From Candidatus Krumholzibacteriota bacterium (GTDB taxonomy: Bacteria; Krumholzibacteriota; Krumholzibacteriia; JAJRXK01): a DNA stretch of 41,794 nt. Shown here in pieces: positions 16,156-39,896 of the stretch (its first letter is position 1; every line of letters starts with the position of its first letter). The position numbers were made by a program, and so were the translations under genes. Below the pieces are notes generated by a model. It was given only the letters and a program-made list of their open reading frames with translations, did no database searches and was not told where the DNA came from. The stretch is taken from assembly GCA_029262065.1 (NCBI GenBank), contig JAJDAC010000010.1, positions 1 through 41,794 on the forward strand, written 5' to 3'.

Positions 16156-16269
16156 GAAGAAGCCCCCCGGTTGTTCTTCCGGGGGGCTTGTTCTCACGAG
16201 CTAGGGGAGCGAAGAAGCCCCCCGGTTGTTCTTCCGGGGGGCTTGTTCTCACGAGCTACCGGGGGGCTA
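16156..16269. repeat. Tandem hairpin-repeat array 1 (terminator-like), downstream of the 2275-aa gene
   Basis: Two 49-bp copies with a 55-bp period (16156 and 16211) each contain AAGCCCCCCGG, an 8-nt loop and CCGGGGGGCTT. Stems are 16160-16170 with 16179-16189, and 16215-16225 with 16234-16244. A third half-unit, CCGGGGGGCTA (16259-16269), includes the stop codon of the giant gene. On the minus strand each stem is followed by CTTCG/CTTCT, so these can act as intrinsic terminators for the giant gene. The same repeat recurs at 24066-24277. Confidence 0.85.
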
Positions 16270-19200: not shown

Positions 19201-22200
19201 CAGGGTTGGCGTGCTCACGTTGAGCAGCTCAAGGCCCGGCGCCGGCGGCCCATCACTGGAGATGGTCGCGAACGATCCGCCGTCGCTGCCATCGGCAAAC
19301 AACTGACCAATCAACGTGGAGCCGTCACTGAAATCGAGCGTAACCGTGGAACCAGACAGTTCCAGACCCGAGATGGCCGCCGTATCGTTCGGGCCGGGAG
19401 AAGGCGTTCCTTCGATGCTCGTAGGATCCACGTCGATCGAGAATTCAATGGATTCGCCCGGCGCGAAACCGTCGGCGTTCACTTGCAGACCCTGGAACCC
19501 GCCGGTCCCCATTGGCAAGCTGTGACTGGACGTGACGTTGGAAACCCCCGCCGTACTGACGTCGAGCGTAAATGGTTTGGCCGAAGTGTCCCCCGCGGTT
19601 CCGTTGGGATCGAATACCAGATCGGGAAGCAATGCGGTGCTCAAGTCGAGTGTCATCGACGTCAAGGTCACGGCCGAAGGCAGCGAGGTGTTGACGAGAA
19701 TGAATGAACTCGTACCCGCGGTCGAAGCGTCCAGGATCTCGCCTGGCGTGACGGCGAAGGTCGCGCTGTTGTCGCTGGGCACGAAGCTGGTCTCCAGGAA
19801 ATCCCACGTGGCCCCGAACGGGGTACCAGAGCCGAACGACGTGGAAATCAGGCCCAGAGCCAGTCCTTGGTTGTCGAGCGGGTCCAGCCAGGTCGACGGA
19901 ATGGTCACCGGAGCACCCAGGTCGGTGATGTTGGCCCCACCATCGATCGATACCTGCGGCTGCACGGTACTTGCCGCCGGGTCCACGACGAAGTAGAGCT
20001 CCACCCCGCTTGAACTCAGGAGGTCACCCGTGGTGCCGGTGCCGTAGGTCGTATTGCTGGTCACCGCACCGGCATCTTCCAGCAGGACCTGGATCCCACT
20101 GAGCCCGCCGTTCGCGCTCATGACGATCTTCAGGTAGCTGTCCTGATCTCCAGTTCCCAGGTACAGCCCGTACGACTGGAAGTTGATTGGGGTACTGGGA
20201 CTGCCGCCCACCTCGAAGAATGGTGGCTCGAGCTGGGTGTGCACAACGAAAGCTGGCGTACTGGTATCGGCATCGATACCCATCTGGAAAGCATACTCCT
20301 GCGTGTTGTTTGCGTTGATTGCATCACCCGCCGGAACCTGCTCGACCGTGAACAGCCCCGAGGCACCTCCGGCGGCCATATTGGTTTCGTCGAACAACGT
20401 CAGGTAGTCCGTGCCGTTGTTCATCAATCCGGTAAAGCCCATGCCAAAGAAGCCGGTGCCCGGGTCCTGATTGAAGAAGCTATAGCTGAAGGGAATCGAG
20501 GTAGTCGTGCCGTTATTCGGATCCCACGCGAACATGTCGTTCACGTCCAGGATGCCATCGTTGTCATCGTCGTCGTCGAGCAGGTCGGACACGAAGTCGC
20601 CGTCGTTGTCGTCGGGTTGGCTACCACCGCTACACGGGTCAGTGCCGTTGGCGATCTCATCGGCGTTCGTGTAGCCGTCGTTGTCCTCGTCGAGTAAAGG
20701 ATCGTTGGTTCCCGTACAGGGCGCGCCTCCACCCACGGGCTCAAAGATGGTGATATTGTCCGCGCCGTAGGTAGCGGCCCAGATCGATCCCGGGAAGATG
20801 TCACCATCGCCCTGGGCAATCACGTCGAGCGGTTGCGAACCGAAACCGCTGAACAGCGCCTCCTGCTCCACCACCGTGTCGCCCGCCCCGTTCAGGGCAA
20901 AACGATAGATGTTGCCGTTGAACGATGCGGCCAGGATGTTGCCCTGCAACTGTCCAGAAAAGTTCGAGGCGGTATACTCGTCGATGCCGTTGGTCGAGGC
21001 ACTGATCACGGCGAGCGAGCCGTCTTCCACACCGGGAATCTGGTAGTCGCCCTCGATCGCATTGGCCGCTGCGAACGGCACCGGGGGCACCGGGAAATCA
21101 ACGGCCCAATCGTACGTATTGATGAGGGTCCAATTACCGCCGACCTTCTCGTACTCGTAGAGATCGGAAAATTCTGGGTTGGCACGCGTCGGATTCGGAT
21201 GACCGCCGTAGTAGCCGGGACCGCTCACGAAGTGCAACCCGTCACCGTAGCCCGTGCTGCCGTTCTCGTTGGTCTGGTTGGTAACGTTGGCTGTGCCCTC
21301 GTTGATGGGGATACCGCCCCAGCCGCTGTTCGGGCCATTGTCGAACGTGTAGATACGACCATTCTGGGTACGCACCGCGTCGTAGGCGTTGCGAAAGCCC
21401 GGAGAATAGACCTGCACGGGCCCCGTCAGGTCCCAGATGGCCTGGTTCAGACCGTTGTTGCCGCCGAACGGATCGCCGGGATCGGCAAGACCGGGCGTGC
21501 CGCGCGAAGGGTCGTCCAGGGTCGGTAGGTCGTATAGGTAGTCGTTGCCGTTGCCATCGACCAGGATGGGCAAGGCTTCGAGCGTCGTCAGGTCAACCGA
21601 CAACAACGCCGCCGACAGAGCGTACTCCGGCGTCTGGGAAAAGTTGTTTCCGGGCGCACCCTTGTTGGTGTGACCGCCCTGGATGAGGTACAGCGTATTG
21701 GAGGTAGTGTCGATCTCGATGCCGTTGCTGGAATGGTTTTCTTCTGAGCGGGGCAAACCACGAACCATCTGAACGTGGTCCCAGGCCGAACCGTTCCAGG
21801 TGAGGCGCGAAAGAATACCACTGTTGGTATCCAGGCCGGTGTCATTGTCCACGGAAATGCGCGGGTCCGACGATGTTACGTAGACCACGGGATTGGACGC
21901 GGTGCCCGCGGTGGCAAGCCCGGTTACCTGGCGGTTGCCCTGACCGCTGGCCGTACCATCGTCGTTGTGATTGGGGATGTTCTGGATCGTGTTGATCGTC
22001 TCGGTAGCCGTGGCGACATAGGACACCGAGCCGGTATCCTGACGCTCGATGGTGTAGGCAACGATGAGCCCGTTCTGCTGCGAAACATATAGCCGGTCGT
22101 CAGGACCGAATTCGAGCGACGTGGGGTTGTTCAGACTCTCACCGCTGAGCCCGTACTGATCGAACGCCACCGGCGCCGCCCCCGGATCGAAGCCCTCTCC

Positions 22201-23094
22201 GTTCAGATTGACGGTCAGCGGAGAGTTGCTGCCGTCGTGGGTAATGGTCAGCGTCTCGGATACCTGTCCGGCCGTCAGCGGGCTGAAGGTCACGTCGAAA
22301 TTGACCGAGCCGCCGGGCGCGATCGACGGCGTGCCCAGCGTGTGACTGAAGTCGCCGCTGGTCACCGCACTCAAGATGTTGATTGTTTGATCACCAGGAT
22401 CACCAAGGTTGTTCAGCGTGACATTCTGTGGTGCCGAACTGGTGGCCGTTTCAAGAAGGCCGAACGAGAGTCCCGTGGGCGACGGACTCAGGAATCCGTT
22501 GGTGTCGGCCGCGAGAATCTCTATGGCGTTGATCAGCGTGTTCTCGACGCCGTGGATGAACGTGATGTCCAGGTTCGCATCGCTCGCCACCACGAAAGGA
22601 AGCATGATCGCGTTCAGGTGACCGTATTGGCCCGAGAGGTCCAACCCGCTCACCACGGTGTTGCCTTCGATCTGAATATCAAATACGCGTTGTCCGGCCG
22701 CGCTGGTTCCACCGAATCCGTTCTTCATGTACAGACGGACTTCGTAGCTTCCCGTCGCTCCCACGGGGAACGTCCAGGTCATTTCAGGCGCTCCAGCGGG
22801 GTCCCAGCGCTCGGTATCGTATAGCGTGGGCGGCGCGCCCGCGGGTACCGAGGGGTCGATCGTTCCACCAGGGAAACCGTTCAGGTTGCTACCCGAATTG
22901 TGATACGTCGATGGCACGGCGGCCGAGTCTTCGTCCCAATCAGGTCCTGCATCGATCGAAGTGAGCTGGCCACCGCCGGCATTCACCCGAAACAGAACTG
23001 TTTGCGCCAACGCTTGCGGGGCCAGCGCGGCCAAGCAGGTAGCAACAAGAAATACGACCATCAACAGTCGGGGCAAGGTGTTCACTAAGCGCAT
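16267..23094 (-). CDS. Giant secreted malectin / sugar-dehydrogenase propeller surface protein (2275 aa)
   Basis: It starts at an ATG with AGGAAGAA eight bases upstream and a signal peptide (about 1-30). Domains in order: malectin 1 (31-195, VLFRVNAGGGQLTSIDAGPDW), Ig-like choice-of-anchor-D domain (about 196-303), and a GSDH-like propeller (about 310-790). Asp-rich thrombospondin-3-type calcium repeats follow (about 795-860), then a beta-rich lectin-like domain (about 860-1130). After a long repeat module come malectin 2 (about 1405-1568), a second copy of the module (about 1578-1881), an Ig-like domain (about 1885-1988) and malectin 3 (about 1995-2168). A PNPFNPRTTI-type sorting domain ends in MTLVK (about 2185-2275). 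Malectin domains bind di- or oligosaccharides, so a glycan-binding, calcium-stabilised cell-surface role is likely. A close paralogue lies upstream at 25719-31646. Confidence 0.88.
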   Translation of the reverse strand: MRLVNTLPRLLMVVFLVATCLAALAPQALAQTVLFRVNAGGGQLTSIDAGPDWDEDSAAVPSTYHNSGSNLNGFPGGTIDPSVPAGAPPTLYDTERWDPAGAPEMTWTFPVGATGSYEVRLYMKNGFGGTSAAGQRVFDIQIEGNTVVSGLDLSGQYGHLNAIMLPFVVASDANLDITFIHGVENTLINAIEILAADTNGFLSPSPTGLSFGLLETATSSAPQNVTLNNLGDPGDQTINILSAVTSGDFSHTLGTPSIAPGGSVNFDVTFSPLTAGQVSETLTITHDGSNSPLTVNLNGEGFDPGAAPVAFDQYGLSGESLNNPTSLEFGPDDRLYVSQQNGLIVAYTIERQDTGSVSYVATATETINTIQNIPNHNDDGTASGQGNRQVTGLATAGTASNPVVYVTSSDPRISVDNDTGLDTNSGILSRLTWNGSAWDHVQMVRGLPRSEENHSSNGIEIDTTSNTLYLIQGGHTNKGAPGNNFSQTPEYALSAALLSVDLTTLEALPILVDGNGNDYLYDLPTLDDPSRGTPGLADPGDPFGGNNGLNQAIWDLTGPVQVYSPGFRNAYDAVRTQNGRIYTFDNGPNSGWGGIPINEGTANVTNQTNENGSTGYGDGLHFVSGPGYYGGHPNPTRANPEFSDLYEYEKVGGNWTLINTYDWAVDFPVPPVPFAAANAIEGDYQIPGVEDGSLAVISASTNGIDEYTASNFSGQLQGNILAASFNGNIYRFALNGAGDTVVEQEALFSGFGSQPLDVIAQGDGDIFPGSIWAATYGADNITIFEPVGGGAPCTGTNDPLLDEDNDGYTNADEIANGTDPCSGGSQPDDNDGDFVSDLLDDDDDNDGILDVNDMFAWDPNNGTTTSIPFSYSFFNQDPGTGFFGMGFTGLMNNGTDYLTLFDETNMAAGGASGLFTVEQVPAGDAINANNTQEYAFQMGIDADTSTPAFVVHTQLEPPFFEVGGSPSTPINFQSYGLYLGTGDQDSYLKIVMSANGGLSGIQVLLEDAGAVTSNTTYGTGTTGDLLSSSGVELYFVVDPAASTVQPQVSIDGGANITDLGAPVTIPSTWLDPLDNQGLALGLISTSFGSGTPFGATWDFLETSFVPSDNSATFAVTPGEILDASTAGTSSFILVNTSLPSAVTLTSMTLDLSTALLPDLVFDPNGTAGDTSAKPFTLDVSTAGVSNVTSSHSLPMGTGGFQGLQVNADGFAPGESIEFSIDVDPTSIEGTPSPGPNDTAAISGLELSGSTVTLDFSDGSTLIGQLFADGSDGGSFATISSDGPPAPGLELLNVSTPTLVGTANQVARITGPPGSTAKLVRVEAALFEQAGGGVNIDPFEANAALVVEPLGGIVLDGTGTADVPIVLTNTNADGGLNYLAATFEGPSGDGFVSPTVVVEYEETIPGVSIYRVNAGGPQLVAADASAPDWSVDSAASPSTYVNATDTGNQIYTNVVPITLDPSVPASVPSALFTTERYDQLATAEELQWDFPVTAGNDYEVRLFFAEIFPGAQSPAFRLFSVFVEGGIVLQDYDVFSDVGADTGVMKAFSVTPADNNLDIDFVHVAENPAIKGIEIVDLTAATDAQALIQITPTGNITTSTFTAGSLQITNQSTDGSNIVGVRLDLSTASLPDMVFDPVGDAGDVLGKCLTPDSGSIATGFVTPVDPCVDPFDLPHDLGYDAVDLAFTDFAAGETFTFSVDIDPTSIQGAPGTGSSGSVSGFELAGATVTVTFDLAGALVAETFAIAGSESGSQAIVRAGLPAAPGIAVLGATNPSVLADANQTVQITGPIGADVRLTVVEAALLTAGAPGGGFDLDPFEANEAVVITEYTATVGAGGTVDIPVVLTDSQLEGGFNYITAAFTDADGATGSNSDTWVHEFDPVALPALGAAPDPVAFGSVGVGSTPAQAVTLTHLGLVGSPDITVDAVDVVGANAAEFSTDFAGPIVLTPGTQTVFNVTFDPVFNGPKSASLSVSHNGLTPPLLVALTGEGTGGTDPSWLYRVNAGGAELTAIDAGPNWSADTLAAPSPYFTAGSNTVYSTAAGSSTGDTIDMSDPSIPATTPVELFKTERYDDTAVPEMQYTFPIAPTTSGTFEVRLYFADIFTGTQAVGARLFDVSIEGNLVLDDYDVFAAVGGAAGVMESFMVSVTDGDLVIDFGHNVENPAIKGIEILELAPTSAPEIPVREQYTLEQNRPNPFNPRTTISFSLKQGAPTSLRIYDVAGRLVRTLVDGKLPAGRHSYVWDGTDRGGRQVSTGVYYYRVVSDSFEQSKRMTLVK

Positions 23095-24389: not shown

Positions 24390-25490
24390 ATGCAAGATTC
24401 TACCATCTGGGTCGGTCTCGACGTGCACAAGGATTCCATCACTGCCGCGATTCTCAAGGACGGCGATTCCCACGCCGAGGTCATTCGAATGTCGAGTGAT
24501 CTCAACAAAGTCCGACGACTGTTCCGGCGACTCTCGGTCGACGGTCCAATCCGTTCGTGCTACGAGGCTTCGGGATCTGGATTCGTTCTCCACCGGGCGC
24601 TCACCGACCACGGGTACTCGTGCGAGGTGGTTGCCCCGTCGTTGATTCCGCGCAAGCCCGGCGACCGTCGAAAGACCGACAAGATCGACGCGATCCAACT
24701 TGCGAAACTCCTGCGCAGCGGTCACCTCACCCCGGTCGAGATCCCCAGCGAAGAGCAGGAGGCCGTGCGCGGGATCGTTCGCTATCGCGCCGTTCTCAAG
24801 CAGGAAGCCAAGCGCGCGAAGCATCGAATCTGTGGCTTTCTGCTACGGCAAGGGCTCACGTTTGATGGCAGCAAATCCAACTGGACCAAGAAACACCGCA
24901 TCTGGATTGCGCAAATGCGGCGTGAGCTCGAAGGTCCCGCGCAGCTGTGTCTGTCGATGGAGCTCGAGCACCTGGAATATCTGGAGAGTCAGCTCAATTC
25001 ACTCGACACGGAGATCGAACGGGAGTCCAGGTGCGAGCCGTACCGAAAAACCGTCGAGGCCCTGCAATGTTTGCGTGGAGTGAAAACCCTAACCGCGATG
25101 ACACTCGCCACGGAGATCGGCGACATCGCCCGTTTTCGATCTCCGCGTGCGCTGATGGCTTGGGTAGGCCTGGTGCCCAGCGAGCGATCTTCGGGTGATC
25201 GCGAACGAAGAGGGCCAATTACCAAGGCCGGAAACAGCGAGGTGCGTCGCGTCCTCATTGAGGCGGGTTGGAACAATCGACATCAGGGAGGTGCTGATCT
25301 GGTCCTCAAACGAAGGCGCCAGGGCCAGGATCCAGCGGCCGTGGCCATCGCCGTGAAAGCACAGCATCGGCTCTCGAAAAAGTTTCGACGACTATGGGAA
25401 CGTAAACATCCCAACGTCGCCGTGGTCGCAGTGGCCCGTGAACTCACCGGTTTCGTCTGGGCCATCATGAACACCGCGCCCCAGCAGTAG
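24390..25490 (+). CDS. IS110/IS1111-family transposase (DEDD, RuvC-like plus Tnp_20)
   Basis: The 366-aa protein has the N-terminal RuvC-like DEDD domain (DEDD_Tnp_IS110): GLDVHKDS carries the first Asp, SCYEASGSG the Glu, and KTDKIDA the two Asp residues. A helical linker (about 125-220) and the C-terminal Tnp_20 domain follow, with LRGVKTLTAMTLATEIGDI and the SSGDRERRGPITKAGN motif holding the catalytic Ser. The ATG has GGAGG seven bases upstream. All key residues are present, so it is probably active. Members of this family work with a guide RNA encoded in a non-coding end of the element. Confidence 0.96.
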   Translation: MQDSTIWVGLDVHKDSITAAILKDGDSHAEVIRMSSDLNKVRRLFRRLSVDGPIRSCYEASGSGFVLHRALTDHGYSCEVVAPSLIPRKPGDRRKTDKIDAIQLAKLLRSGHLTPVEIPSEEQEAVRGIVRYRAVLKQEAKRAKHRICGFLLRQGLTFDGSKSNWTKKHRIWIAQMRRELEGPAQLCLSMELEHLEYLESQLNSLDTEIERESRCEPYRKTVEALQCLRGVKTLTAMTLATEIGDIARFRSPRALMAWVGLVPSERSSGDRERRGPITKAGNSEVRRVLIEAGWNNRHQGGADLVLKRRRQGQDPAAVAIAVKAQHRLSKKFRRLWERKHPNVAVVAVARELTGFVWAIMNTAPQQ

Positions 25491-25718: not shown

Positions 25719-28700
25719 TCATTTCACCAGGGCCATCCTTCTTGTCTGCTCAAATGACTCACTCTTGAGTCGGTAGTAGTACACACCGGTGGAAACCCGG
25801 TGGCCTCCCTGATCCGTACCGTTCCAAACGAAACTGTGACGCCCGGCCGGCAAGCGGCCATCGACCAGCGAAGTGACCAGGCGGCCCGCCACGTCATAGA
25901 TACGCAGGCTCGCGGGCGCGTCATGTTCCAACGTGAACGAGATCGTCGTCCTCGGATTGAACGGATTGGGCCGGTTCTGCTCCAACGCGTAGCTCGTTCG
26001 CGAGGGCGTCGGCGCGCCGGTCGCAATGAGTTCCAGGATCTCGATACCCTTGATCGCGGGATTCTGCGTGTTGTGCCCGAAGTCGATCACCAGGTCAGCA
26101 TCGGCCACGTTCACGACGAACGAGCGCATCATGCCCGCGGCGCCGCCCACTTCGGCAAACACATCGAAGTCATCAAGCACCAAGGCACCTTCGATCGTTA
26201 CATCGAAAAGACGCAGGCCCGCACCTTGGGTGCCCGTGAAGATGTCGGCAAAGTACAACCGCACCTCGAACGTACCCGAGGTGGTGGGCGCGATCGGGAA
26301 AGTGTATTGCATGTCCGGAACCGGCGCGGTGTCGTATCGCTCGGTGCGGAACAGATCCACGGGTGCCGTCAACGGAAGCGACGAGTCGCTCATGTCGATG
26401 GTATTTCCCGTCGACTGCGCGTCTGCTGTCGTAAAGACCGTATTGCTCCCCGCCGTGAGATATGTCGACGGGGCCGCAACGGAGTCTTCACTCCAATTGG
26501 GGCCAGCGTCGATGGCGAGTACCTCAGGACCACCGGTATTCACACGATACAGCCAGAGCGGGTCGGCTCCTCCAATCGCTTCGCCCGCCAACGCGATTGA
26601 CGTGGGCGAACCCAGTCCGTTGTGCGAAACGTTCACGGTGGCTTGCTTTACGCCGTTGAACAGAGCATTGAACGAGACGTTCAGGACAAGCTGCTCGCCC
26701 GCGCCCAGCACCACCGGACCGGAAAAATCGGCAGCGAACTCGGTGGCGTTGGGACCGACCATCGTCACCGCGTCCACCGTGATTTCGTCGCTGCCCGGCA
26801 ACCCCTGATGAGTCAGAACGACTACCTGGGACGGTGAACCGCCGACCGGGACCTGCCCAAACATCAGCGAATCAGGCACTGCGCCCAATTGGGGTTGCGG
26901 ATGCGCAACCGGTGAAACGTCGATGATTTCGATTCCCTTGATTGCCGGGTTCGATGCCACGTGCACGAAATCGATATCCAGATTGTTGTCGGTGGGCGTC
27001 ACCAGGAATGACGTCATGATTCCCGTATCCGCACCGGCATTGGAAAACACGTCGTAGTCCTGCAACACAATGCCCTGCTCTATGAACACGCTGAACAACC
27101 GACCCGAAGGCGTTTGTGCCAAAGGAAGAATCTCGGCGAAGTACAGGCGCACTTCGTATTCTTCATTGGCCACCACGGGAAAGTCCCAGCGCAACTCTTC
27201 GGCCGTCAACAATTCGTCGAAGCGCTCGGTGATGAAGAGATCGGCGGGCACGCTGGCCGGGACCGATGGATCGAGCGTGATGGGGACGTTCTTGGTAAAG
27301 ACCGTGTTGTTGGTCTCGACCCAGTTCACATAGGAAGACGGATTGGCTCGACTGTCTTCGCCCCAGTCGGGCGCGCTCGCGTCGGCCGCAACCAGCTGCG
27401 GACCACCCGCGTTGATGCGATACAGGGACACCGGAGGCAGCGGGGGCACGTACTGGGCCACTACGGTTGGCGAAACGAATCCGTCACCGCCGGGCCCAAC
27501 CAATGTGGCACGAAGATGATTGATGCCGCCGACCGGGTCGGAGTTGGTCAAGACCACCGGAACGTCAGCCGTCCCCGTACCATCGAGCACGATTCCGGTG
27601 ATGGTCTCCACTCCAATGGCCGCGTTCGCTTCGAACGGGTCAATTCCGACGCCCCCACCCAACGGCTCGAAAAGGCCGGCTTCCACCCGCAACAACTTCG
27701 CGGTTGCTCCGGGAGGTCCCGTAATCCGAGCGGTCTGATTTTCCACGCCAACCTGGACCGGCGCGATCACGTTCAAGAGTTCCAGCCCAGGCGCCGTGAG
27801 CGCGGCGTTGTCCAAGGTAGCGAAACTTCCGCCGTCCGTCCCATCTCCGAAGAGTTGGCCAGTTACGATGGAGCTGTCGTCGAAGTTCAAGGTGATGGTG
27901 GCTCCCACCAACTCGAGACCAGAAACCCCACCAGCTCCATTCGGCCCGGGCGACACTTCGCCCTCGATACTCGTAGGGTCAACGTCGATCGAAAAGTCGG
28001 CAAACTCGCCGGCTCCGAAGTCACCGAAGTTGATCTGCAGCTGCTGAAAACCACCGTTCCCAAACGGCTGGCTCAACGAATGCGTAACCGCGCCAATTCC
28101 CGGCGAGCTCGCATCGAGCGTGAAGTCCTTGGCCAGGTCATCACCGGCGGTACCGCTGGGATCGAACACCATGTCGGGTAGCAAAGCCGTACTGAGGTCT
28201 ATGACCATGGACGTAAGGTTCACCGCCGGAACCGCGGGCGAGGTGTTGATCACCTGAATCGCGCTGGTTCCCGACACAGACGCGCCAACTGCTCCGGCGG
28301 CGGTTACCGCCACCGTCGCACTGTTGTTCGACGGCACGAAGCCTGTCTCCAGGAAGTCCCAGGTTGCGCCGAACGGCGTTCCCGAGCCAAAAGACGTGGA
28401 AATGAGCCCCAAGGCCAGGCCCTGGTTGTCGGCCGGATTCAGCCAGGCGCTCGGTATGGAAATGGGGCTTCCGAGGTCAATGATGGTCGCACCCGAATTC
28501 GTCGAAACCTGCGGTTGCACCGTGCTGCTGGCCGGGTCCACGACGAAGTACAACTCCACCGCACTCGAGCCCAACAGATCGCCGGTGACTCCGGTACCGT
28601 AGGTGGTCCCCGAAGACGCTCCTCCGTCTTCCAGCAAGACCTGGATACCGCTGGCCCCGCCATTGGCATTCAGGACGATCTTCAGATAGTTGTCCTGGTC

Positions 28701-31646
28701 ACCAGTACCAAGGTACAAGCCGTACGACTGGAAATCGATTGGCGTGGTCGGACTACCGCCAACCTGGAAAAATGGCGGCTCCAGCTGCGTATGCACGAAG
28801 AACGCCGGCGTCGACGTGTCGACATCGATGCCCAATTGGAACGCGTATTCCTGGGTGTTCGTGGCGTTGATGGCATCACCCGAGGGTACCAGTTCAACCG
28901 TGAAAAGACCGGACGCGCCACCGGCCGCCAGGTTCGTCTCGTCGTACTGGGTAAGATAGTCGGCGCCATTGTTCATGAGCCCCGTGAAGCCCATGCCGAA
29001 GAATCCTGTCCCCGGGTCCTGATTGAAGAAGCTGTAGTTGAAAGGCACCGCGGTGGTGGTTCCGTTGTCGGGGTCCCATGCGAACATATCGTTCACATCG
29101 AGAATCCCGTCGTTGTCGTCATCGTCGTCGATGAGATCGGAAGTGAAATCCAGATCGTTGTCGCTAGGCTGACTGCCACCGCTACAGGGATCGGTGCCGT
29201 TGGCGATTTCATCGGCGTTGTCGTAGCCGTCGTTGTCTTCGTCGAGGAACGGATCGTCGGCACCCGTACAGGTCGTGCCCAGGTCGATGGGCTCGAACAC
29301 GGTGATGTTGTTTGACCCGTAGGTAGCCACCCAAACCGTGCCGGGAAACACGTCGCCGTCACCCTGCGCGGTCACATCTAGCGGCTGGGTTCCGAAACCA
29401 CTGAACTGGATCTCCTGCTCCAGTACGGTGTCACCGGCACCGTTCAGCGCGAAACGATAGACATTGTTGTTGAAGGCGGCCGCCAGAAGATGACCCTGGA
29501 TCTGGCCGCCAAAATTGGATGCCGTGTACTCGGTGATTCCGTTCGTCGAGGCGGAGATGACGGCCAGGGCCCCGTCCTCGGTGGGCGGCACCAGAAAGTC
29601 GCCCTCGATCGGATTGGCCGCGGCGAAAGGCACCGGCGGAACAGGAAAGTCCAGCGCCCAGTCGTAGGTGTTGATGAGCGTCCAGGTGCCGCCGATCTTC
29701 TCGTACTCGTAGAGGTCGGAGAATTCGGGGTTGGCGCGCGTGGGGTTGGGATGCCCGCCGTAGTAACCGGGACCGCTGATGAAGTGCAGCTGGTCGCCGT
29801 AGCCAGTGCTGCCGTTCTCGTTGGTCGCGTTGTTCACGTTGGCGGTTCCCTCGTTGATGGGAAGTCCGCCCCAACCCGAGTTGGGACCGTTGTCGAATGT
29901 GTAGAGCCGCCCGTTCTGCGTTCGCACCACGTCGTAGGCGTTGCGGAAACCCGGCGAATAGACCTGAACAGGACCGGTGAGATCCCAGATGGCCTGGTTC
30001 AACCCGTTGTTGCCACCGAACGGATCGCCCGGATCGGGTTGGCCAGGGGTGCCTCGCGTGGGGTCGTCCAACGTGGGTAGGTCGTAGACGTAGTCGTTTC
30101 CGTTGCCGTCGGTAAGAATTGGCATGGCTTCGAGCATCGTCAGATCCACCGACAACAACGCCGCCGACAGCGCAAACTCGGGAGTCTGCGAAAAGTTGTT
30201 ACCCGGCGCGCCCTTGTTGGTATGCCCGCCTTGAATCAGGAACAGCGTGTTCGTGTTGGGGTCGTGGTCCATGCCATTGCTGGCGTGGTTCTCTTCCGAC
30301 CGCGGCAAACCGCGAACCAATTGGACGTGGTCCCAGCTTGCACCGTTCCACGTGAGCCGGGAGATGATCCCACTATTGGTGTCCAGCCCCAGATCGTTGT
30401 CCACCGAGATGCGTGGGTCCGATGACGAGACATAGAGAACGGGATTCGCGGCCGTGCCCAATACCATGAGGCCCGTCACCTGCCGGTTGGCTTGAAAGCT
30501 ATCGGCTCCGTCATCGTCGTGATTGGGAATGTTCTGCACCAGATCAATGTACTCGGATCCGATGACCACGTAGGACACCGACCCCGAGTCCTGTCGATCC
30601 ACGGTATACACCAGGATCCCACCGTTCTGCTGCGAAACGTAGAGACGTCCGTCGGGCCCAAACTGCAACGACGTGGGATTGTTGAGGCTTTCGCCCTGCA
30701 GGTTGTACTGGTCGAAAGAAACGGGAGCCGCTCCGGGGTCGTACGCATCGCCAGACACACCAATGACCACGGGAGAATTGCTTCCGTCGTGGGTAATGGT
30801 GATGGTTTCGGCCACCAACCCCGCTGAGAGCGGGTTGAAGGTCACGTCGAAGTCCACCGAGCCGCCTGGCGCAATGGCGGGAGTACCAAGCGTGTGAGAA
30901 AAGTCGCCGGTGGCGACCACACCGGTGATGTTGACCGTCTGGTCGCCGGGCTCACCCAGGTTGCTCAGGGTGATGGTCTGGGGCGCGGAACTGGTAAACG
31001 CTTCGATCAAGCCAAACGACAAACCACCCGGCGAAGGCGACAGGAAGCCGTTCGTATCCACGGTCAGAATCTCGATTGCGTTGACCAGCGGATTTTCGAT
31101 GTTGTGCAAGAACGTGATGTCGAGGTTCGCATCGCTGGCCACGACGATCGACTGCATGAACCCAACCTGGTGACCAAATTGACCGGATAGGTCGAGGTCG
31201 GTCAGGACCGTGTTGCCCTCGATGGAAACGCTGAATACGCGGGCACCTCCCGAACTGGTTCCGCTGTACCCGTTCTTGAAATAGAGGCGCACTTCGTAGT
31301 TTGCCGACGCCGCCACGGGAAAGGTCCACTGCATCTCGGGCGATCCCGAAGGATCCCAGCGCTCGCTATCGAAGATCTCAGGCGGCGTGCTCGCCGGCAC
31401 GGTGGGATCGATGGACCCGCCCGTGAAGCCGGCGCCCGTACTGCCGCTGTTGCGATACGGTGACGGCGACGCGTCGGTGTCGACTTCCCAATCGATCCCG
31501 GCGTCGATAGCGGTGACTGCGGCGCCGCCAGCGTTCACACGAAACAATACGCTCTGGGCTGCGGCGGGAAGCGGAAGGATCAGAATCGAGAGAAGAACCA
31601 GGCCGACGGCAGTGAGGCCGCCAAGGTGACGGGATAGCGAGCGCAT
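25719..31646 (-). CDS. Giant secreted malectin / sugar-dehydrogenase propeller surface protein, paralogue (1975 aa)
   Basis: The ATG at 31646 is chosen; a TTG three bases upstream is closer to the AGGGGA site and cannot be excluded. The protein has a signal peptide, malectin 1, an Ig-like domain, a GSDH-like propeller, calcium-binding Asp-rich repeats (DEDNDGYDNADEIANGTDPC) and a lectin-like domain. Malectin 2 (about 1402-1582), an Ig-like domain (about 1589-1692), malectin 3 (about 1695-1872) and a PNPFNPRTTI-type sorting domain ending in MALVK follow. It matches the 2275-aa protein nearly throughout but lacks one module of about 300 residues after malectin 2. The stop TGA (25721-25719) is formed at the IS junction; the paralogue uses TAG at the same place. 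Coding capacity appears intact. Confidence 0.88.
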   Translation of the reverse strand: MRSLSRHLGGLTAVGLVLLSILILPLPAAAQSVLFRVNAGGAAVTAIDAGIDWEVDTDASPSPYRNSGSTGAGFTGGSIDPTVPASTPPEIFDSERWDPSGSPEMQWTFPVAASANYEVRLYFKNGYSGTSSGGARVFSVSIEGNTVLTDLDLSGQFGHQVGFMQSIVVASDANLDITFLHNIENPLVNAIEILTVDTNGFLSPSPGGLSFGLIEAFTSSAPQTITLSNLGEPGDQTVNITGVVATGDFSHTLGTPAIAPGGSVDFDVTFNPLSAGLVAETITITHDGSNSPVVIGVSGDAYDPGAAPVSFDQYNLQGESLNNPTSLQFGPDGRLYVSQQNGGILVYTVDRQDSGSVSYVVIGSEYIDLVQNIPNHDDDGADSFQANRQVTGLMVLGTAANPVLYVSSSDPRISVDNDLGLDTNSGIISRLTWNGASWDHVQLVRGLPRSEENHASNGMDHDPNTNTLFLIQGGHTNKGAPGNNFSQTPEFALSAALLSVDLTMLEAMPILTDGNGNDYVYDLPTLDDPTRGTPGQPDPGDPFGGNNGLNQAIWDLTGPVQVYSPGFRNAYDVVRTQNGRLYTFDNGPNSGWGGLPINEGTANVNNATNENGSTGYGDQLHFISGPGYYGGHPNPTRANPEFSDLYEYEKIGGTWTLINTYDWALDFPVPPVPFAAANPIEGDFLVPPTEDGALAVISASTNGITEYTASNFGGQIQGHLLAAAFNNNVYRFALNGAGDTVLEQEIQFSGFGTQPLDVTAQGDGDVFPGTVWVATYGSNNITVFEPIDLGTTCTGADDPFLDEDNDGYDNADEIANGTDPCSGGSQPSDNDLDFTSDLIDDDDDNDGILDVNDMFAWDPDNGTTTAVPFNYSFFNQDPGTGFFGMGFTGLMNNGADYLTQYDETNLAAGGASGLFTVELVPSGDAINATNTQEYAFQLGIDVDTSTPAFFVHTQLEPPFFQVGGSPTTPIDFQSYGLYLGTGDQDNYLKIVLNANGGASGIQVLLEDGGASSGTTYGTGVTGDLLGSSAVELYFVVDPASSTVQPQVSTNSGATIIDLGSPISIPSAWLNPADNQGLALGLISTSFGSGTPFGATWDFLETGFVPSNNSATVAVTAAGAVGASVSGTSAIQVINTSPAVPAVNLTSMVIDLSTALLPDMVFDPSGTAGDDLAKDFTLDASSPGIGAVTHSLSQPFGNGGFQQLQINFGDFGAGEFADFSIDVDPTSIEGEVSPGPNGAGGVSGLELVGATITLNFDDSSIVTGQLFGDGTDGGSFATLDNAALTAPGLELLNVIAPVQVGVENQTARITGPPGATAKLLRVEAGLFEPLGGGVGIDPFEANAAIGVETITGIVLDGTGTADVPVVLTNSDPVGGINHLRATLVGPGGDGFVSPTVVAQYVPPLPPVSLYRINAGGPQLVAADASAPDWGEDSRANPSSYVNWVETNNTVFTKNVPITLDPSVPASVPADLFITERFDELLTAEELRWDFPVVANEEYEVRLYFAEILPLAQTPSGRLFSVFIEQGIVLQDYDVFSNAGADTGIMTSFLVTPTDNNLDIDFVHVASNPAIKGIEIIDVSPVAHPQPQLGAVPDSLMFGQVPVGGSPSQVVVLTHQGLPGSDEITVDAVTMVGPNATEFAADFSGPVVLGAGEQLVLNVSFNALFNGVKQATVNVSHNGLGSPTSIALAGEAIGGADPLWLYRVNTGGPEVLAIDAGPNWSEDSVAAPSTYLTAGSNTVFTTADAQSTGNTIDMSDSSLPLTAPVDLFRTERYDTAPVPDMQYTFPIAPTTSGTFEVRLYFADIFTGTQGAGLRLFDVTIEGALVLDDFDVFAEVGGAAGMMRSFVVNVADADLVIDFGHNTQNPAIKGIEILELIATGAPTPSRTSYALEQNRPNPFNPRTTISFTLEHDAPASLRIYDVAGRLVTSLVDGRLPAGRHSFVWNGTDQGGHRVSTGVYYYRLKSESFEQTRRMALVK

Positions 31647-34510: not shown

Positions 34511-35794
34511 CTAGACCGCCGCGGCGGCAACTCGATTGCTGGACGAGCGGTACCGCTGTTCGGCCTGTTCGAGTTGTCGCCGGAACGACCAGCCGAACGC
34601 ACGTCGAGCCAGCTGCAACCGGGCCCGATGACGCCAGTAGCGACCACGGTTGCGGGACAACCATGCGCATTCCTCGGGTAGCAGCACGAGACTCACGTGG
34701 ATGTTCGGCGCCACTCCAATAGGCAGCTCATTCTCCATACACTGGTCGTAGAGCGTGCCGAACACGTCGATCAGATCCTCGGTGCGCGGCGGGGGTACAT
34801 CCGAGTAGTCGGTTCCCTGCAGCGGGCGAAACACACAGACCGTGGGAATCGCGCCCACTGAAGTGATCCACTCGATCGCCTTCTTACTACTTTCGGCTGG
34901 CTCCAACCCGGCGATGATTTCACCGTTGGAGACCCAGGGGTCGAATGAGAGCCCACGATCCTGTCCCAGCGTGGCGCAATGCCGTATTGCATCCAGGTAT
35001 CGTGGCAAGCCGTACTCGCGGTGCTTTCCTGGGCACACGTCAACGAAACGCTCGGGGTCGAAAATCTCGAAGCAAAACGAAACCCGATTCACCCCCATCT
35101 TGCGCAGGCGCTCGTAGCGGCCCAGATCAGAATGCGGTGGCGTCTGCACACCAATGAGCAAGCCGGTTTCCTCCTTGACCCGGCGGATGTACGGCTCGAG
35201 CACATCCAGGTACGTCTCGCCTTCATAGTGACCCGTGTTGAAATCCACGTAGGTGATGCCACTTTCTTCGCGAGCGGCATGTACCACTTCCAATACCTCG
35301 TCCACGGACTTGCCGTCGGCGTCGTCGGCTCCGAGGTTCAACCCAACGCTACAGAATTTGCAGTTCGTCTTGTCTGGCTTCTCCAGCCAATACTCGCAAA
35401 CGCGAGAAGGATACACACCCAGGTAGGTTCCCTGCAGGGACCCTACGCGCGTCATGGATTTCCCAGTGGTGGTTTCGCGGTCGTACCAGGAAGGCTTGGG
35501 ACTTGCCTCGACGATGGCTACTTCCTCACGGCCAGGTTCGTCGCGCCGGATCACCAACTTGTCGTTCTCACGGAACAGTATGTATGGAGACTCCTGCGCA
35601 AACCCCTCGGTTACCGGGACATTCGTCCACAGCCCGTGGGGCAACACCAACTCCAATCCGCTGCCCAGGCCAGCTCGCGTTCTCAGGATCTTTCGACCGG
35701 ACTCCGCGACAAAGTACGAGTCATCGATCCGGATTCCCTTGCAGTAGAGATCGAGTTTCAGCAGAGCGGGATTGTTGCGTACGTCGAGAACCAT
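34511..35794 (-). CDS. Radical SAM protein with unusual CX11CX2C cluster motif
   Basis: The 427-aa protein has a beta-rich N-terminal domain (about 1-115) and a radical SAM-type TIM barrel (about 120-370). The cluster ligands appear to be C133, C145 and C148 (VCEYWLEKPDKTNCKFCSVG), i.e. CX11CX2C rather than CX3CX2C. Downstream YVDFNTGHYEG sits where the SAM-binding GGE-like motif is expected, and GLLIGVQTPP and GVNRVSFCFEIFD resemble biotin-synthase-like barrels. The C-terminus (about 385-427) is Arg-rich and helical. The substrate is unknown and no obvious partner gene is adjacent. The family is certain only at superfamily level. Confidence 0.8.
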   Translation of the reverse strand: MVLDVRNNPALLKLDLYCKGIRIDDSYFVAESGRKILRTRAGLGSGLELVLPHGLWTNVPVTEGFAQESPYILFRENDKLVIRRDEPGREEVAIVEASPKPSWYDRETTTGKSMTRVGSLQGTYLGVYPSRVCEYWLEKPDKTNCKFCSVGLNLGADDADGKSVDEVLEVVHAAREESGITYVDFNTGHYEGETYLDVLEPYIRRVKEETGLLIGVQTPPHSDLGRYERLRKMGVNRVSFCFEIFDPERFVDVCPGKHREYGLPRYLDAIRHCATLGQDRGLSFDPWVSNGEIIAGLEPAESSKKAIEWITSVGAIPTVCVFRPLQGTDYSDVPPPRTEDLIDVFGTLYDQCMENELPIGVAPNIHVSLVLLPEECAWLSRNRGRYWRHRARLQLARRAFGWSFRRQLEQAEQRYRSSSNRVAAAAV

Positions 35795-35954: not shown

Positions 35955-36587
35955 TCAGGGCAAACGCACGGTCGCCATGGATGATCGATCCAGCACGCTG
36001 GTTCCTTCCACGGCCAACACCCGCACGTATACCTCCTGGCCGCTGAAACCCGCGGGAAGATTCGCGATGGATACGCGAAGCGCCCCACCCTCCACCGGCC
36101 CGGACCGATGGATCTCGTTCAGCTCAAGGTCATAGAACACGATCGAGAACTGTTCGTGGACTTCGGGCGCCGTCCAATCGAATACAAGGACGTCGCCCGC
36201 CACGACCGGCTGACTGAGCACAATCGAGTCTGCGGCTGGCCCTCTGAGCGCGGGAGGAAACTCAGTTTCCGGCGACCAAACCGAAAGGCCCACGGCAACC
36301 GCCGCCACGGCCGCGGCGACCGCCAAGGCTGGCTGCCACCGTAGGAAACGGCCCGCGCGAATCGGTGCCTGCCGCGGCTGAGCAATGTTTTCGTGGAGAA
36401 ATGCACCCAGCCTTTCGCTCGCCTCGCCGGCCCGCGAACCCACGGCGGGCTCGCTCGCTACGAAGGCCAGGTACTCCCGCAAAAGCGCACGCCGATGGGG
36501 ATCTTCGTCCCACGCACGTCGCTCGGACGCATCGACGGGTAGTGCCGCTACGGCGTCGAGCCCGGTCAGATCGAGTTCGTCAGCCAT
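35955..36587 (-). CDS. Probable single-pass membrane anti-sigma factor
   Basis: The start is the ATG at 36587, six bases after GGAGG and overlapping the end of the sigma gene by eight bases, giving 210 aa. Upstream ATGs at 36617 and 36611 are possible but lack a better site. Residues 1-83 are a cytoplasmic region with no HXXXCXXC zinc motif, 85-104 a membrane span, and 110-210 a beta-rich Ig/FN3-like ectodomain. Gene order and topology match ECF anti-sigma factors, but the sigma-binding fold is not recognised from sequence, so the role rests on context. Confidence 0.65.
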   Translation of the reverse strand: MADELDLTGLDAVAALPVDASERRAWDEDPHRRALLREYLAFVASEPAVGSRAGEASERLGAFLHENIAQPRQAPIRAGRFLRWQPALAVAAAVAAVAVGLSVWSPETEFPPALRGPAADSIVLSQPVVAGDVLVFDWTAPEVHEQFSIVFYDLELNEIHRSGPVEGGALRVSIANLPAGFSGQEVYVRVLAVEGTSVLDRSSMATVRLP

Positions 36588-37200
36588 CGGTGGCCTCCGG
36601 TCGTTGGTCATTGGCAATCGCGTCCGTCAGTTTCCGTCGCGCGCGCTGCAGCAGTCCGCGCGCGCCAGTGCGGTTGGTGAGCGCCAACAACCGTGTTATC
36701 TCGTCGGGAGGAAGACATTCGAAGTACCGCATCACCATTGCCTCCTGTTCCTGCGGGTCCAGCACCTGGGCCATGACCCTCAGCATCGCCTCCTGGTCGT
36801 CCGCCATTTCCAGAACCTTGTCGGGCCCGGGGGCGTGATCGACCAGAGACTCCAATTCGTACTCCGAGTCCACGTTCCAGCGTCGCGACTGGACCGCGTT
36901 CAGACACGTGGAGCGGGTCACGGCAAAGAGCCACGTTGAGAATCGAGAGCGACCCTCGAACGTGTCGAGCTTCCGGTATGCGCGCAGCAAAACGTCCTGC
37001 GCCAGATCCATGGCGCCGTCGTGATCTCGCACGTAACGAAAACACCACTGGTAGACCGCATCTTTGTAGCGACCGAGCAACTGTGAAGCCGCCTGGCGTG
37101 AGCGTTCGGAGCCAGGATCGGCCAGCGCCTCCCTCAGGAGGGCCTCGTCCGCATCTTCGGTCTTCAATTGGTAGGACAAGGGTGGAACCCTCTCGATCAC
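36580..37200 (-). CDS. ECF-type RNA polymerase sigma factor
   Basis: The protein has sigma region 2 (YQWCFRYVRDHDGAMDLAQDVLLRAYRKLDTFEGRSRFSTWLF in pieces near residues 50-90) and region 4 (about 145-195, LDPQEQEAMVMRYFECLPPDEITRLLAL). The GTG at 37200 is chosen because it forms GTGA with the stop of the CHAT gene; a TTG at 37179 following GAGAGGG is an alternative, and the frame is open to 37260. It directly follows the CHAT-protease gene and overlaps the anti-sigma gene. It should direct a stress-type regulon; its target promoters are not visible. Confidence 0.93.
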   Translation of the reverse strand: MIERVPPLSYQLKTEDADEALLREALADPGSERSRQAASQLLGRYKDAVYQWCFRYVRDHDGAMDLAQDVLLRAYRKLDTFEGRSRFSTWLFAVTRSTCLNAVQSRRWNVDSEYELESLVDHAPGPDKVLEMADDQEAMLRVMAQVLDPQEQEAMVMRYFECLPPDEITRLLALTNRTGARGLLQRARRKLTDAIANDQRPEATDG

Positions 37201-39896
37201 ACGCGTCGTCGAATCTGTTCTCCCAGGACCAGTATGCCCCCCAGGGCCAGGATCCACCACCCCGCCCTGGGCAGGCCGGCCGGCGCAATCAACGGCACCG
37301 CAACGAGATCCGGGTCCCCCACCACGATGAAGCCCGCCCAGTAGTGGGGATGCGAGGTCTGGGGCTGGCTGCGAATGGCCATCTGGGCGGACTGCAGGGC
37401 CGGACCAACCGCCTTCCCGGCCGCCAACTCCTTGTAGAATCGATCCACCAGGTCCCGCGTGGCCGCATCATCGATGTCCCATAGCGTGGCCACCACACTC
37501 GAAGCTCCGGCGACGAGAAACGCGGAGGATAGGCCGGCCACCCCGGAGCTGCCGACGGTGCGCCCCAGGCCGGTCTTGCAGCCCGCCAAGACCGCAAGGT
37601 CGCAACCCAGATCGGACTCCAGGATGTCACTGGCGTACAAATGGGTTCGTTTTCCATCGTGGCCCATGTCACCGTTTGCGAGTCGGAACCCCGAATGCCA
37701 GAGACGTTCTTCATCGACGCTGGCGTGGGCAGCAACATGGAGAATGGCGGCCGTTCGCAGCGAGTCAACCAGGCCTTCGAAACCCCTGACTACGAAAACG
37801 TCGCGGTATTGTTTCTGCAGCGACGCGATCTCCGCCTCGGCTCCGACGAGGTCGTTCTTGGGCCCAACGAGCGCCAGAATTGACCTTCCGCGCGATGCTG
37901 GCCTCTGGGCAGGTTGAGCCAACAGCGCCAGCGACGGAAGTCGTACGATCCCGCGCTCGAGCGCAAGCGGCTCGCCGTCGGAATCGGGCAACAAACCCAG
38001 CGGAAAGGCAGCGAATCCCCCGTCAGGAGAAAAGACAATGCGCTTGGCACCATGCAATAGACCGAACATCTGGCCGAAAAGCGCTTCACGGACACGCTCA
38101 CCCACCGCGTTCACGCTAATCTCATTCACGGCGCGATCGCTGGCCACTTCGCAAAACAAGTTGAGGTCTGCCATCATTTGCCTGGGGTCGGAGACCACGC
38201 GCACCTGGACCTGGTTCCGATCAATCACCACCACGATGACCTCACGATCCCCGACAAACACATCGACCGCGACCTGAAAAGGACCGAGAACTTGCTGCAC
38301 CCGGGCAAACGGAACCGGGTTCACTTGTCTGGAGGGCGCCCGAACTGGGGATGAGAGACGATCCAGAACGGTTCGGGCCTTTGCGCCCTGCATTCGCTCC
38401 ACGATATCTTCAACGCTCGCACCCACGTTTTCGCGTCGACGCGCCCGAACCAGTTCAGCCGCCGCGTCCGTCAACGCCAACACACGTTGCGAGCCCTCAA
38501 CCTCCCGCCAATTCAACGACTCTGCTTGCACACGTACGCGCTCGACGGCATCGAATCCCATGGTCAGCGCTTCCCAACTACCTTCGACGTCACCGGTCAG
38601 AGCCAAGCACCGCGCGCGATAGCTTTGCGCGAGCGCCAGCTTGTCGGGTGCCAGGTCCAGATCCAGTAGCTCCTGAGCTTGTTCGCAAGCGTCGTGCGTA
38701 CGCCCCATCAACAAAAGGAATCGGCAGAGATTCAGCAGGACATTGTTCCTGAGAAGCGGATCTGTCTTCTCAATCGTGGCCATGTTCTTCTGCACGATTT
38801 CGAGCGCCGTCGCAACACTATCCATGCTCGCGAGGGCATCCACCAACCCCAACGTGGCGGACGTATGTGCTTCAGCTGCGTTGGGATCGGAGAGAATTCC
38901 TCGATGCAACTGAGCCGCCGTACGCCGGTGTCCCTGAAGCATGCGCAGATTTGCGAGTTGCACCGTCGCAACGTAGTACGCTGACATAGCACCCAGAGAG
39001 AAGGCAGTTTTCCGTGCTTCTTCCAGGAGTTCGACGGCCGACTGCCAGTGACCCAGAGAAGAGCGAATGAGAACCAGGTTTGTAACGATTTCGAAATCGA
39101 GGAAATTCTCGGTTCCCTCCGAGCGCACTCGATATGCTTCCTCAAAGAAGTAGGCCGAGCGTTCGAGCGAACCGAATTCCGTTTGTTCGAGCACCCCCAG
39201 ATTGGTAAGCGCGGCTGCCTCGTTGGGTCCGTCGCCGAGCTCTTTGGCCACATTCCGTACCTGCAGGAATGTTGCCCGCGCGGAATCCGCCTGCGCCAGA
39301 TTATGTTGCGCTCGCCCCAATCCATTCAGCGCCGACAGCCGCCAGCCTGATTGCCCGAACTCGCCAAACAGGCTCTCGGCCCGCGAATAGTTCGTCACTG
39401 CTTCGCGGTAGCGACCAAGGTTTACGTTGGCGAAACCCTGGCTGAGATTTGCGAACGCTTCACCCAGCGAATCGTCGGCGGCGCGAGCAATGTCGGCCTG
39501 ACGAGCCGCCAACTCGATAGCCGCTTCGTGACGCCCCTGACCACCAAGGGCCAACGCCCCCACCCCGAGGGCCGTCAGCAAGGTAAGCGTATCGGAATTT
39601 GCCTCGGCGAGGCCTTGCGCGCGGGCGAGACTGCGAAGACTATCGCCAACACGACCGCTGCCCAGCTCGGCCTGGCCGCGAGCGCAAATCAGTCGCCCCA
39701 GCTGCAGGGAGTCTCCGCGGGCGCGCGCCGCTTCCACCAGCGGGGGAACCGTGTCGAGAATGGCGACATAGGCTTGCTGATCGGCCAGCACGCGAATGCG
39801 CTGTGCGAGCGGATCCTGCAGATCCCATTCGCGAGCCAACACGTCAGTCCAGTGGAAAACAACCAACCACGTAGCGATGATCAACACGTACCGCAA
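37197..39896 (-). CDS. TPR-CHAT cysteine protease, predicted periplasmic and membrane-anchored
   Basis: The 899-aa protein starts at TTG 39896, five bases after GGAGG (39906-39902). It has a signal peptide (about 1-21), then TPR-type helical repeats (about 30-450). A C-terminal CHAT domain (about 590-865) has the caspase-like dyad H724 (HVAAHAS) and C773 (LAGCKTG), followed by LWDIDDAATRDLV. A C-terminal membrane span (about 879-892) ends in QIRRRV. CHAT domains are caspase-related proteases; the TPRs are usually the sensor. The topology puts the protease outside the cytoplasm. It is the first gene of an overlapping operon with an ECF sigma factor and probable anti-sigma factor. Proteolysis of the anti-sigma ectodomain is a reasonable inference but not shown. 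Confidence 0.9.
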   Translation of the reverse strand: MRYVLIIATWLVVFHWTDVLAREWDLQDPLAQRIRVLADQQAYVAILDTVPPLVEAARARGDSLQLGRLICARGQAELGSGRVGDSLRSLARAQGLAEANSDTLTLLTALGVGALALGGQGRHEAAIELAARQADIARAADDSLGEAFANLSQGFANVNLGRYREAVTNYSRAESLFGEFGQSGWRLSALNGLGRAQHNLAQADSARATFLQVRNVAKELGDGPNEAAALTNLGVLEQTEFGSLERSAYFFEEAYRVRSEGTENFLDFEIVTNLVLIRSSLGHWQSAVELLEEARKTAFSLGAMSAYYVATVQLANLRMLQGHRRTAAQLHRGILSDPNAAEAHTSATLGLVDALASMDSVATALEIVQKNMATIEKTDPLLRNNVLLNLCRFLLLMGRTHDACEQAQELLDLDLAPDKLALAQSYRARCLALTGDVEGSWEALTMGFDAVERVRVQAESLNWREVEGSQRVLALTDAAAELVRARRRENVGASVEDIVERMQGAKARTVLDRLSSPVRAPSRQVNPVPFARVQQVLGPFQVAVDVFVGDREVIVVVIDRNQVQVRVVSDPRQMMADLNLFCEVASDRAVNEISVNAVGERVREALFGQMFGLLHGAKRIVFSPDGGFAAFPLGLLPDSDGEPLALERGIVRLPSLALLAQPAQRPASRGRSILALVGPKNDLVGAEAEIASLQKQYRDVFVVRGFEGLVDSLRTAAILHVAAHASVDEERLWHSGFRLANGDMGHDGKRTHLYASDILESDLGCDLAVLAGCKTGLGRTVGSSGVAGLSSAFLVAGASSVVATLWDIDDAATRDLVDRFYKELAAGKAVGPALQSAQMAIRSQPQTSHPHYWAGFIVVGDPDLVAVPLIAPAGLPRAGWWILALGGILVLGEQIRRRV

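Follow-up and report, generated by a model that had tools for sequence, protein, structure and literature searches.

The window analysed here, 41,794 nucleotides of contig JAJDAC010000010.1 (positions 1 to 41,794, forward strand) from a Candidatus Krumholzibacteriota bacterium (assembly GCA_029262065.1), carries three consecutive minus-strand open reading frames that encode a TPR-CHAT protease, an extracytoplasmic function (ECF) sigma factor and a 210-aa single-pass membrane protein, the candidate anti-sigma factor. This gene trio is conserved across a little-studied phylum. The CHAT protein is predicted to be exported, and we consider it somewhat probable that this protease is dedicated to the site-1 cut in the anti-sigma factor. 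An earlier, sequence-only reading of the locus had proposed that the protease cuts the anti-sigma. That proposal is partly supported here, and it is strengthened by a fusion of a CHAT protease to the anti-sigma ectodomain in another genome (L192) and by a juxtamembrane arginine that is invariant in 47 of 47 relatives. Gene calls were made with our own heuristic, and transmembrane (TM) segments and signal peptides were assigned by hydropathy.

A search with the anti-sigma protein returned 16 matches in 12 genomes, most of them with an adjoining sigma gene and a CHAT gene nearby. Since this query would select on the trait being counted, the sigma factor was used as the anchor in a search of all 80 genomes of the phylum (E ≤ 1e-28), which identified 55 places in 36 genomes and 54 usable loci. 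A CHAT gene lies within 8 kb of the sigma gene in 42 of the 54, in the order CHAT-sigma-anti-sigma (25 loci), sigma-anti-sigma-CHAT (12), divergent (4) or convergent (1). The genome to which the window belongs (G000) encodes 32 CHAT proteins and 50 proteins with sigma70 region 2, abundances that might by themselves place such genes side by side. However, 32 CHAT genes in 5.77 Mb predict only about 5 of 54 loci with a CHAT within 8 kb, and the linkage is kept while gene order is shuffled; the probability of a chance neighbourhood is practically nil, and the counts refute it. Twelve loci are without a CHAT gene, at least five of which end at a contig edge. Six are clear cases (L099, L108, L110, L120, L131, and L132), and for five of these the genome also holds a complete triad (G000, G067, G075, G018, and G044). 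Triads extend beyond the phylum to Acidobacteria (L054), Planctomycetota (L061 and L064) and loci L181, L182, and L185, with looser arrangements at L180 and L183, so the co-occurrence anticipated in the sequence-only reading is borne out in several gene orders. The pairwise distances of the three proteins are also correlated (r of 0.79, 0.73, and 0.76, against a permutation maximum of 0.34).

The TPR-CHAT gene (37197..39896; all features of the trio are on the minus strand) has a TTG start with a GGAGG-type ribosome-binding site upstream, and its 899-aa product was characterized with Pfam, an AlphaFold2 model and Foldseek. Hydropathy and sequence indicate a signal peptide at approximately residues 1-21 (39834..39896; hydrophobic core 3-21, with VLA before R22). 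This is followed by a helical TPR region at about residues 29-514 (38355..39812; Pfam TPR_12, E 1e-13; AlphaFold2 helices, those of 441-527 at low confidence) and a CHAT caspase-like domain at residues 604-861 (37314..38087; PF12770, E 9.8e-49, 166.8 bits versus a cut-off of 24). The protein ends in a TM anchor (residues 878-898, 37203..37265) and an RRRV-type positive tail, as indicated by hydropathy, the model and relatives. In the AlphaFold2 model (pLDDT 69) a signal helix and TPR helices precede CHAT at 541-862 and TM at 878-898. The signal peptide and anchor described earlier are thus both recognizable, as an N-terminal hydrophobic helix and a C-terminal TM ending in RRR. Of the related CHAT proteins, 34 reach 850 aa or more; a signal peptide was recognized in 31 of these, a C-terminal TM in 32, the two together in 29 and the positive tail in 32, consistent with a catalytic domain that is predicted to lie outside the cytoplasmic membrane.

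The catalytic dyad read from the sequence, H724 and C773, falls in the motifs HVAAH and LAGC. His724 (37725..37727) is invariant in 39 of 39 aligned triad CHATs, and Cys773 (37578..37580) is retained in each of the 37 relatives whose sequence extends over the position. Foldseek searches with the CHAT model returned Csx29 as the top match (E 4.8e-17) and then separase, as well as the anti-sigma factor DdvA (E 1.8e-12 over 860 columns, spanning both its TPR and CHAT parts). Two acids are invariant in the triad CHAT alignment, D625 just past the first CHAT strand (beta1) and D810 at a helix start of the model. Compared by topology only, they resemble the acids modelled to hold the P1 arginine in gingipain and separase. 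Asp818, the aligned position of the separase S1 acid, was rejected because this residue is not conserved. A contig search with the CHAT protein itself returned distant CHATs only, which were used as named examples and as rows of the structure alignment.

The anti-sigma gene (35955..36587) starts with ATG and encodes an N-terminal cytoplasmic anti-sigma domain (residues 1-70, 36378..36587; four predicted helices in the alignment and model), a single TM segment (residues 87-105, 36273..36329; hydropathy and relatives) and an FnIII-like ectodomain (residues ~118-210, 35958..36236; structure prediction and hhalign). The window protein alone has no family match in Pfam or NCBIfam, and a sequence search of the PDB returned nothing useful. 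Its family was examined through 47 aligned full-length relatives, with which an independent 40-row alignment agrees. Most relatives carry the ZAS motif H-x3-C-x2-C (His in 87%, the two Cys in 94% each), and zf-HC2 of Pfam is matched by 4 of 40; for these reasons we call the family anti-sigma factors. The window protein is by homology a zinc-less member of this ZAS-bearing family, and its gene position and homology suggest that it binds the cognate ECF sigma. Flank charge around the TM is +2.9 before and +0.3 after, so the N-terminus is predicted to be inside, and the single TM with a cytoplasmic N-terminus gives an RseA-like topology. The beta-rich ectodomain on a single-pass protein that had been noticed from the sequence is predicted to be an FnIII-like beta sandwich (pLDDT ~80, modelled without an alignment).

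Among the 47 relatives only F42, R115, and W138 are invariant. R115 is part of a juxtamembrane L114-R115-G116 motif (36240..36248), a candidate cleavage site, in which the preceding residue (P2) is L, M or V in 42 of 47 and the following residue (P1') is G in 39 of 47. Its spacing varies, with 10-23 residues from the TM to the arginine and 20-29 from the arginine to the core tryptophan. Because the invariant arginine sits in a linker of varying length on both sides, the pattern looks like a short recognition or cleavage motif. Alternatively, L-R-G may be the structural start of the FnIII ectodomain and be unrelated to proteolysis, with CHAT cutting the anti-sigma elsewhere. The motif is found in all subfamilies, whether CHAT is adjacent or not, and precedes the same FnIII-like fold, as this explanation would predict. 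However, the indels that alter its spacing to the TM and to the FnIII core, and its position outside the confidently modelled strands (the first strand begins at 128), argue against a purely structural role. A similar D-[VI]-R-[GAS] sequence occurs in an unrelated, soluble family of C-terminal domains beside cytoplasmic CHATs: in the genome of the window, the linkers of ZAS-like partners of these CHATs carry it in 8 of 8 cases, one of them without a CHAT nearby. Taken together we regard the structural explanation as rather unlikely, though it deserves real weight.

Direct contact between protease and ectodomain is suggested by locus L192 (L192:6028-9309) of the single-contig genome G008, where one 1093-aa protein comprises a signal peptide, TPR, CHAT, two TMs, the sequence GILRGDS and an FnIII-like ectodomain. 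This ectodomain aligns with that of the anti-sigma family (hhalign E 4e-15), and the two TMs would bring the CHAT and FnIII parts to one face of the membrane. A sigma-anti-sigma fusion was also found (L196), which may be a frame error.

The sigma gene adjoins the anti-sigma gene with an 8-base overlap, ATGGCTGA, which is present in the sequence as the earlier reading had it; sigma ends at 36580 and the anti-sigma ATG is at 36587. The sigma product matches Sigma70_r2 (E 4e-17) and r4_2 (E 4e-6) in Pfam and the NCBIfam sigma70-ECF model (E 3e-26, 92 bits versus 42.9), and it carries only regions 2 and 4, as expected for an ECF factor. The same reading had the sigma gene start within a 4-base GTGA overlap with the CHAT gene. 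These letters exist, and a GTG start at 37200 would give 206 aa. However, a conserved promoter-like element lies there, and the start is probably the in-frame TTG at 37167 instead (36580..37167, 195 aa). The element, TGTGATC-N17-GTC (37175..37201), covers the CHAT stop codon and matches TGTGATT-N14-(G/C)GTC, which in relatives is typically located 26-34 nt 5' of the sigma start codon. TTG 37167 is preferred since its offset of 34 from the element equals that in L130 and L134. TGTGAT is present in 20 of the 32 loci without a CHAT directly before sigma, where 1.07 would be expected, and the TGTGATT-type element also occurs directly 5' of sigma within CHAT-first operons (for example L129, L130, and L134), consistent with a candidate ECF-type promoter. 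With this element 5' of sigma, the sigma and anti-sigma genes can probably also be transcribed from a promoter of their own.

Since ECF sigmas often regulate adjacent genes, CHAT could instead be an output under sigma control, that is, an exported effector such as a stress or cell-death protease, or a protease with other substrates, and the linkage would then reflect autoregulation only. The conserved sigma-type promoter 5' of sigma, with CHAT downstream of it in 12 loci, and the many CHAT genes of the genome that are far from a sigma gene are consistent with this. We nevertheless consider it improbable, as CHAT is upstream of the promoter in the window and in 24 other loci, and as the fusion of CHAT to the ectodomain and the invariant arginine point to direct contact. 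Sites resembling TGTGATT-N14-GTC are located elsewhere in the same genome, 64-102 nt upstream of genes for an Omp85/POTRA protein, a 1-Cys peroxiredoxin, a metallo-beta-lactamase-rhodanese protein and a Calx-beta protein (L235, L239, L242, and L229). These hint weakly at an envelope or redox regulon, in a scan too noisy to define one.

If the exported CHAT is the site-1 protease, the anti-sigma N-terminal domain would hold the ECF sigma at the inner membrane face while the FnIII-like domain is displayed outside. A signal perceived via the TPR array, the FnIII domain or both would activate CHAT, which would then cleave the anti-sigma factor within its short extracytoplasmic linker. The most likely position is after Arg115 of L-R-G, a site for which we hold the chances to be slightly less than even. 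Further proteolysis, by a site-2 protease or a general one, would then free the sigma, and the freed sigma would transcribe its own operon from the TGTGATT-N14-CGTC-type promoter along with other genes. The sequences themselves show the three genes and their domains, the conserved active site, linkage and upstream element, the invariant arginine, the fusion and a predicted same-side topology; that the window anti-sigma binds sigma, that and where it is cut, the signal and the release of sigma are inferred.

Several observations weigh against this scheme. The arginine motif persists in 8 of 8 loci of the family that have no CHAT, so LRG may be the target of a different protease or have a structural role, although a complete triad is present elsewhere in at least five of the six clearly CHAT-less genomes. 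In the genome of the window a loose arginine motif is found in about 3 of 14 TM anti-sigmas that are not next to a CHAT and in 4 of 6 linked ones. The L192 fusion keeps LRG yet has no sigma-binding domain, and therefore LRG may also matter for the CHAT-ectodomain contact itself. The retention of the motif in both settings would fit a CHAT that acts on the anti-sigma by binding and regulation but makes no cut, or an LRG/FnIII region that is a pseudosubstrate inhibitor of CHAT, with an HtrA-like site-1 protease making the cut; DdvA, a known TPR-CHAT anti-sigma, also reportedly has an incomplete active site. A pure scaffold could do without the dyad, yet it is strictly conserved in triad CHATs, and we judge such a non-cutting role to be slightly more improbable even than the effector role considered above. 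This copy may have diverged, as the window CHAT lacks the GEG glutamate (S784, where 34 of 37 have E) and the zinc ligands of the window anti-sigma are lost (A25, D29, and R32). The only M50 protease frame found in the genome, a site-2 candidate, is short. The correlated protein distances could stem from co-inheritance alone. Further, Csx29 does not cut after arginine (PMC10028731), and arginine specificity of a CHAT cannot be assumed.

CHAT and sigma genes are associated in several other ways in the genome of the window. Of its 32 CHATs (L021-L051), 16 have a sigma70 region-2 gene no more than 6 kb away, where ~0.1 is expected for each, and at least four architectures are represented. At L024, L025, and L027-L031 a repeated operon encodes an ECF sigma, then a small, soluble ZAS-like protein bearing the D[VI]R[GAS] linker and then a cytoplasmic TPR-CHAT, a Craspase-like layout with no CRISPR genes seen nearby. 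At L036, L039, L042, and L048 the order is ECF sigma, Ser/Thr kinase-like TM protein and exported CHAT; the same order occurs in Isosphaeraceae (L058 and L070) with a TM protein of 601 or 630 aa whose identity as a kinase is putative. At L021, L047, and L049 an exported CHAT and a pair of ECF sigma and TM anti-sigma are arranged divergently, and the outside part of this anti-sigma looks like TPR rather than FnIII. Two further sigma/anti-sigma pairs of the window family, with VLRG and FRG motifs and no adjacent CHAT, are present in this genome at L108 (C31) and L198 (C28).

It is tentatively possible that CHAT proteases form a general class of arginine-specific activating proteases for ECF sigmas, of which DdvA and Craspase would be two specialised branches. 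The architectures in question pair an exported CHAT with a TM anti-sigma, a cytoplasmic CHAT with a soluble anti-sigma, or an exported CHAT with a TM kinase, and in both types that include an anti-sigma the linker joining its sigma-binding and sensor domains has an aliphatic-Arg-small motif. If CHAT is indeed the site-1 protease, the trio would represent an extracytoplasmic caspase/separase-like site-1 protease for anti-sigmas, with a predicted cleavage site and promoter that are directly testable in a heterologous host. It would also unite the one-chain DdvA and the cytoplasmic Craspase in a single lineage in which TPR-CHAT proteins control ECF sigmas, and would suggest that controlling sigma factors is a common task of bacterial CHAT proteins, whose substrates are mostly not known.

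Immediately 3' of the anti-sigma gene is a gene for a radical SAM protein (34511-35794; NCBIfam variant_rSAM). Elsewhere the window encodes two huge exported proteins (16267-23094, 2275 aa; 25719-31646, 1975 aa) with similar N-terminal 'VLFRVNAGG' repeats, malectin-like by eye, and an IS110-like transposase gene (24390-25490) sits between them.

The sequence-only reading compared the locus with Craspase, which is correct, as Csx29 cleaves Csx30 between residues 427 and 429 and Csx30 inhibits an ECF sigma (PMC10028731). Both systems encode together a TPR-CHAT protease, an ECF-sigma inhibitor and a sigma (CASP-sigma in Craspase). However, Craspase is cytoplasmic, RNA-guided by Cas7-11 and directed at the soluble Csx30, whereas the window CHAT is predicted to be exported. 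The Csx29 family model NF041237 scores the window CHAT at 14.4 bits versus a cut-off of 300. In the trio and the radical SAM neighbour, PADLOC and NCBIfam searches matched nothing that would mark a defence system or Craspase apart from a general TPR model, Cas7-11 not having been searched for elsewhere in the window or genome.

Among other CHAT systems, HetF of Anabaena is described in PMC12288457 as a CHAT protease that cleaves the inhibitor PatU3. The likeness lies in a bacterial CHAT protease removing an inhibitor; HetF is, in contrast, a divisome protein of a system without sigma or anti-sigma. The cut in PatU3 reportedly follows an arginine. ECF54 is likewise an ECF sigma genomically linked to CHAT; it has CHAT, subtilase and carboxypeptidase neighbours, proteolytic control has been proposed for it, and it is described as lacking an anti-sigma (PMC8999054), whereas the window unit includes a canonical membrane anti-sigma. 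RseA/DegS/RseP shares the single-pass anti-sigma with an outside domain and the expected site-1 and then site-2 cleavage, but the protease linked to the anti-sigma in the window is a clan CD cysteine protease and not an HtrA serine protease.

A nearer precedent, left unmentioned in the sequence-only reading, is DdvA/DdvS of Myxococcus xanthus, whose transmembrane anti-sigma has been solved by cryo-electron microscopy (PDB 8rw5 and 8rot; Bernal-Bernal et al. 2024, reference 287 of PMC12288465). Both systems pair an ECF sigma with a single-pass anti-sigma and a TPR-CHAT outside the membrane, as predicted for the window CHAT. The TPR-CHAT outside part of DdvA is said to have an incomplete His-Cys site, and caspase-like autoproteolysis before RseP has reportedly been proposed. 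In DdvA a single chain holds the anti-sigma domain, TM and TPR-CHAT, whereas the window divides them between two genes, and the sole partial fusion in the window family, L192, is without an anti-sigma domain. Further, the window CHAT is anchored separately and its dyad is intact, and the window anti-sigma has an FnIII ectodomain of its own and a conserved linker arginine. By these comparisons the window unit belongs to none of the known systems considered here, and it appears to function much as DdvA would if it were split into two chains and its protease were intact.

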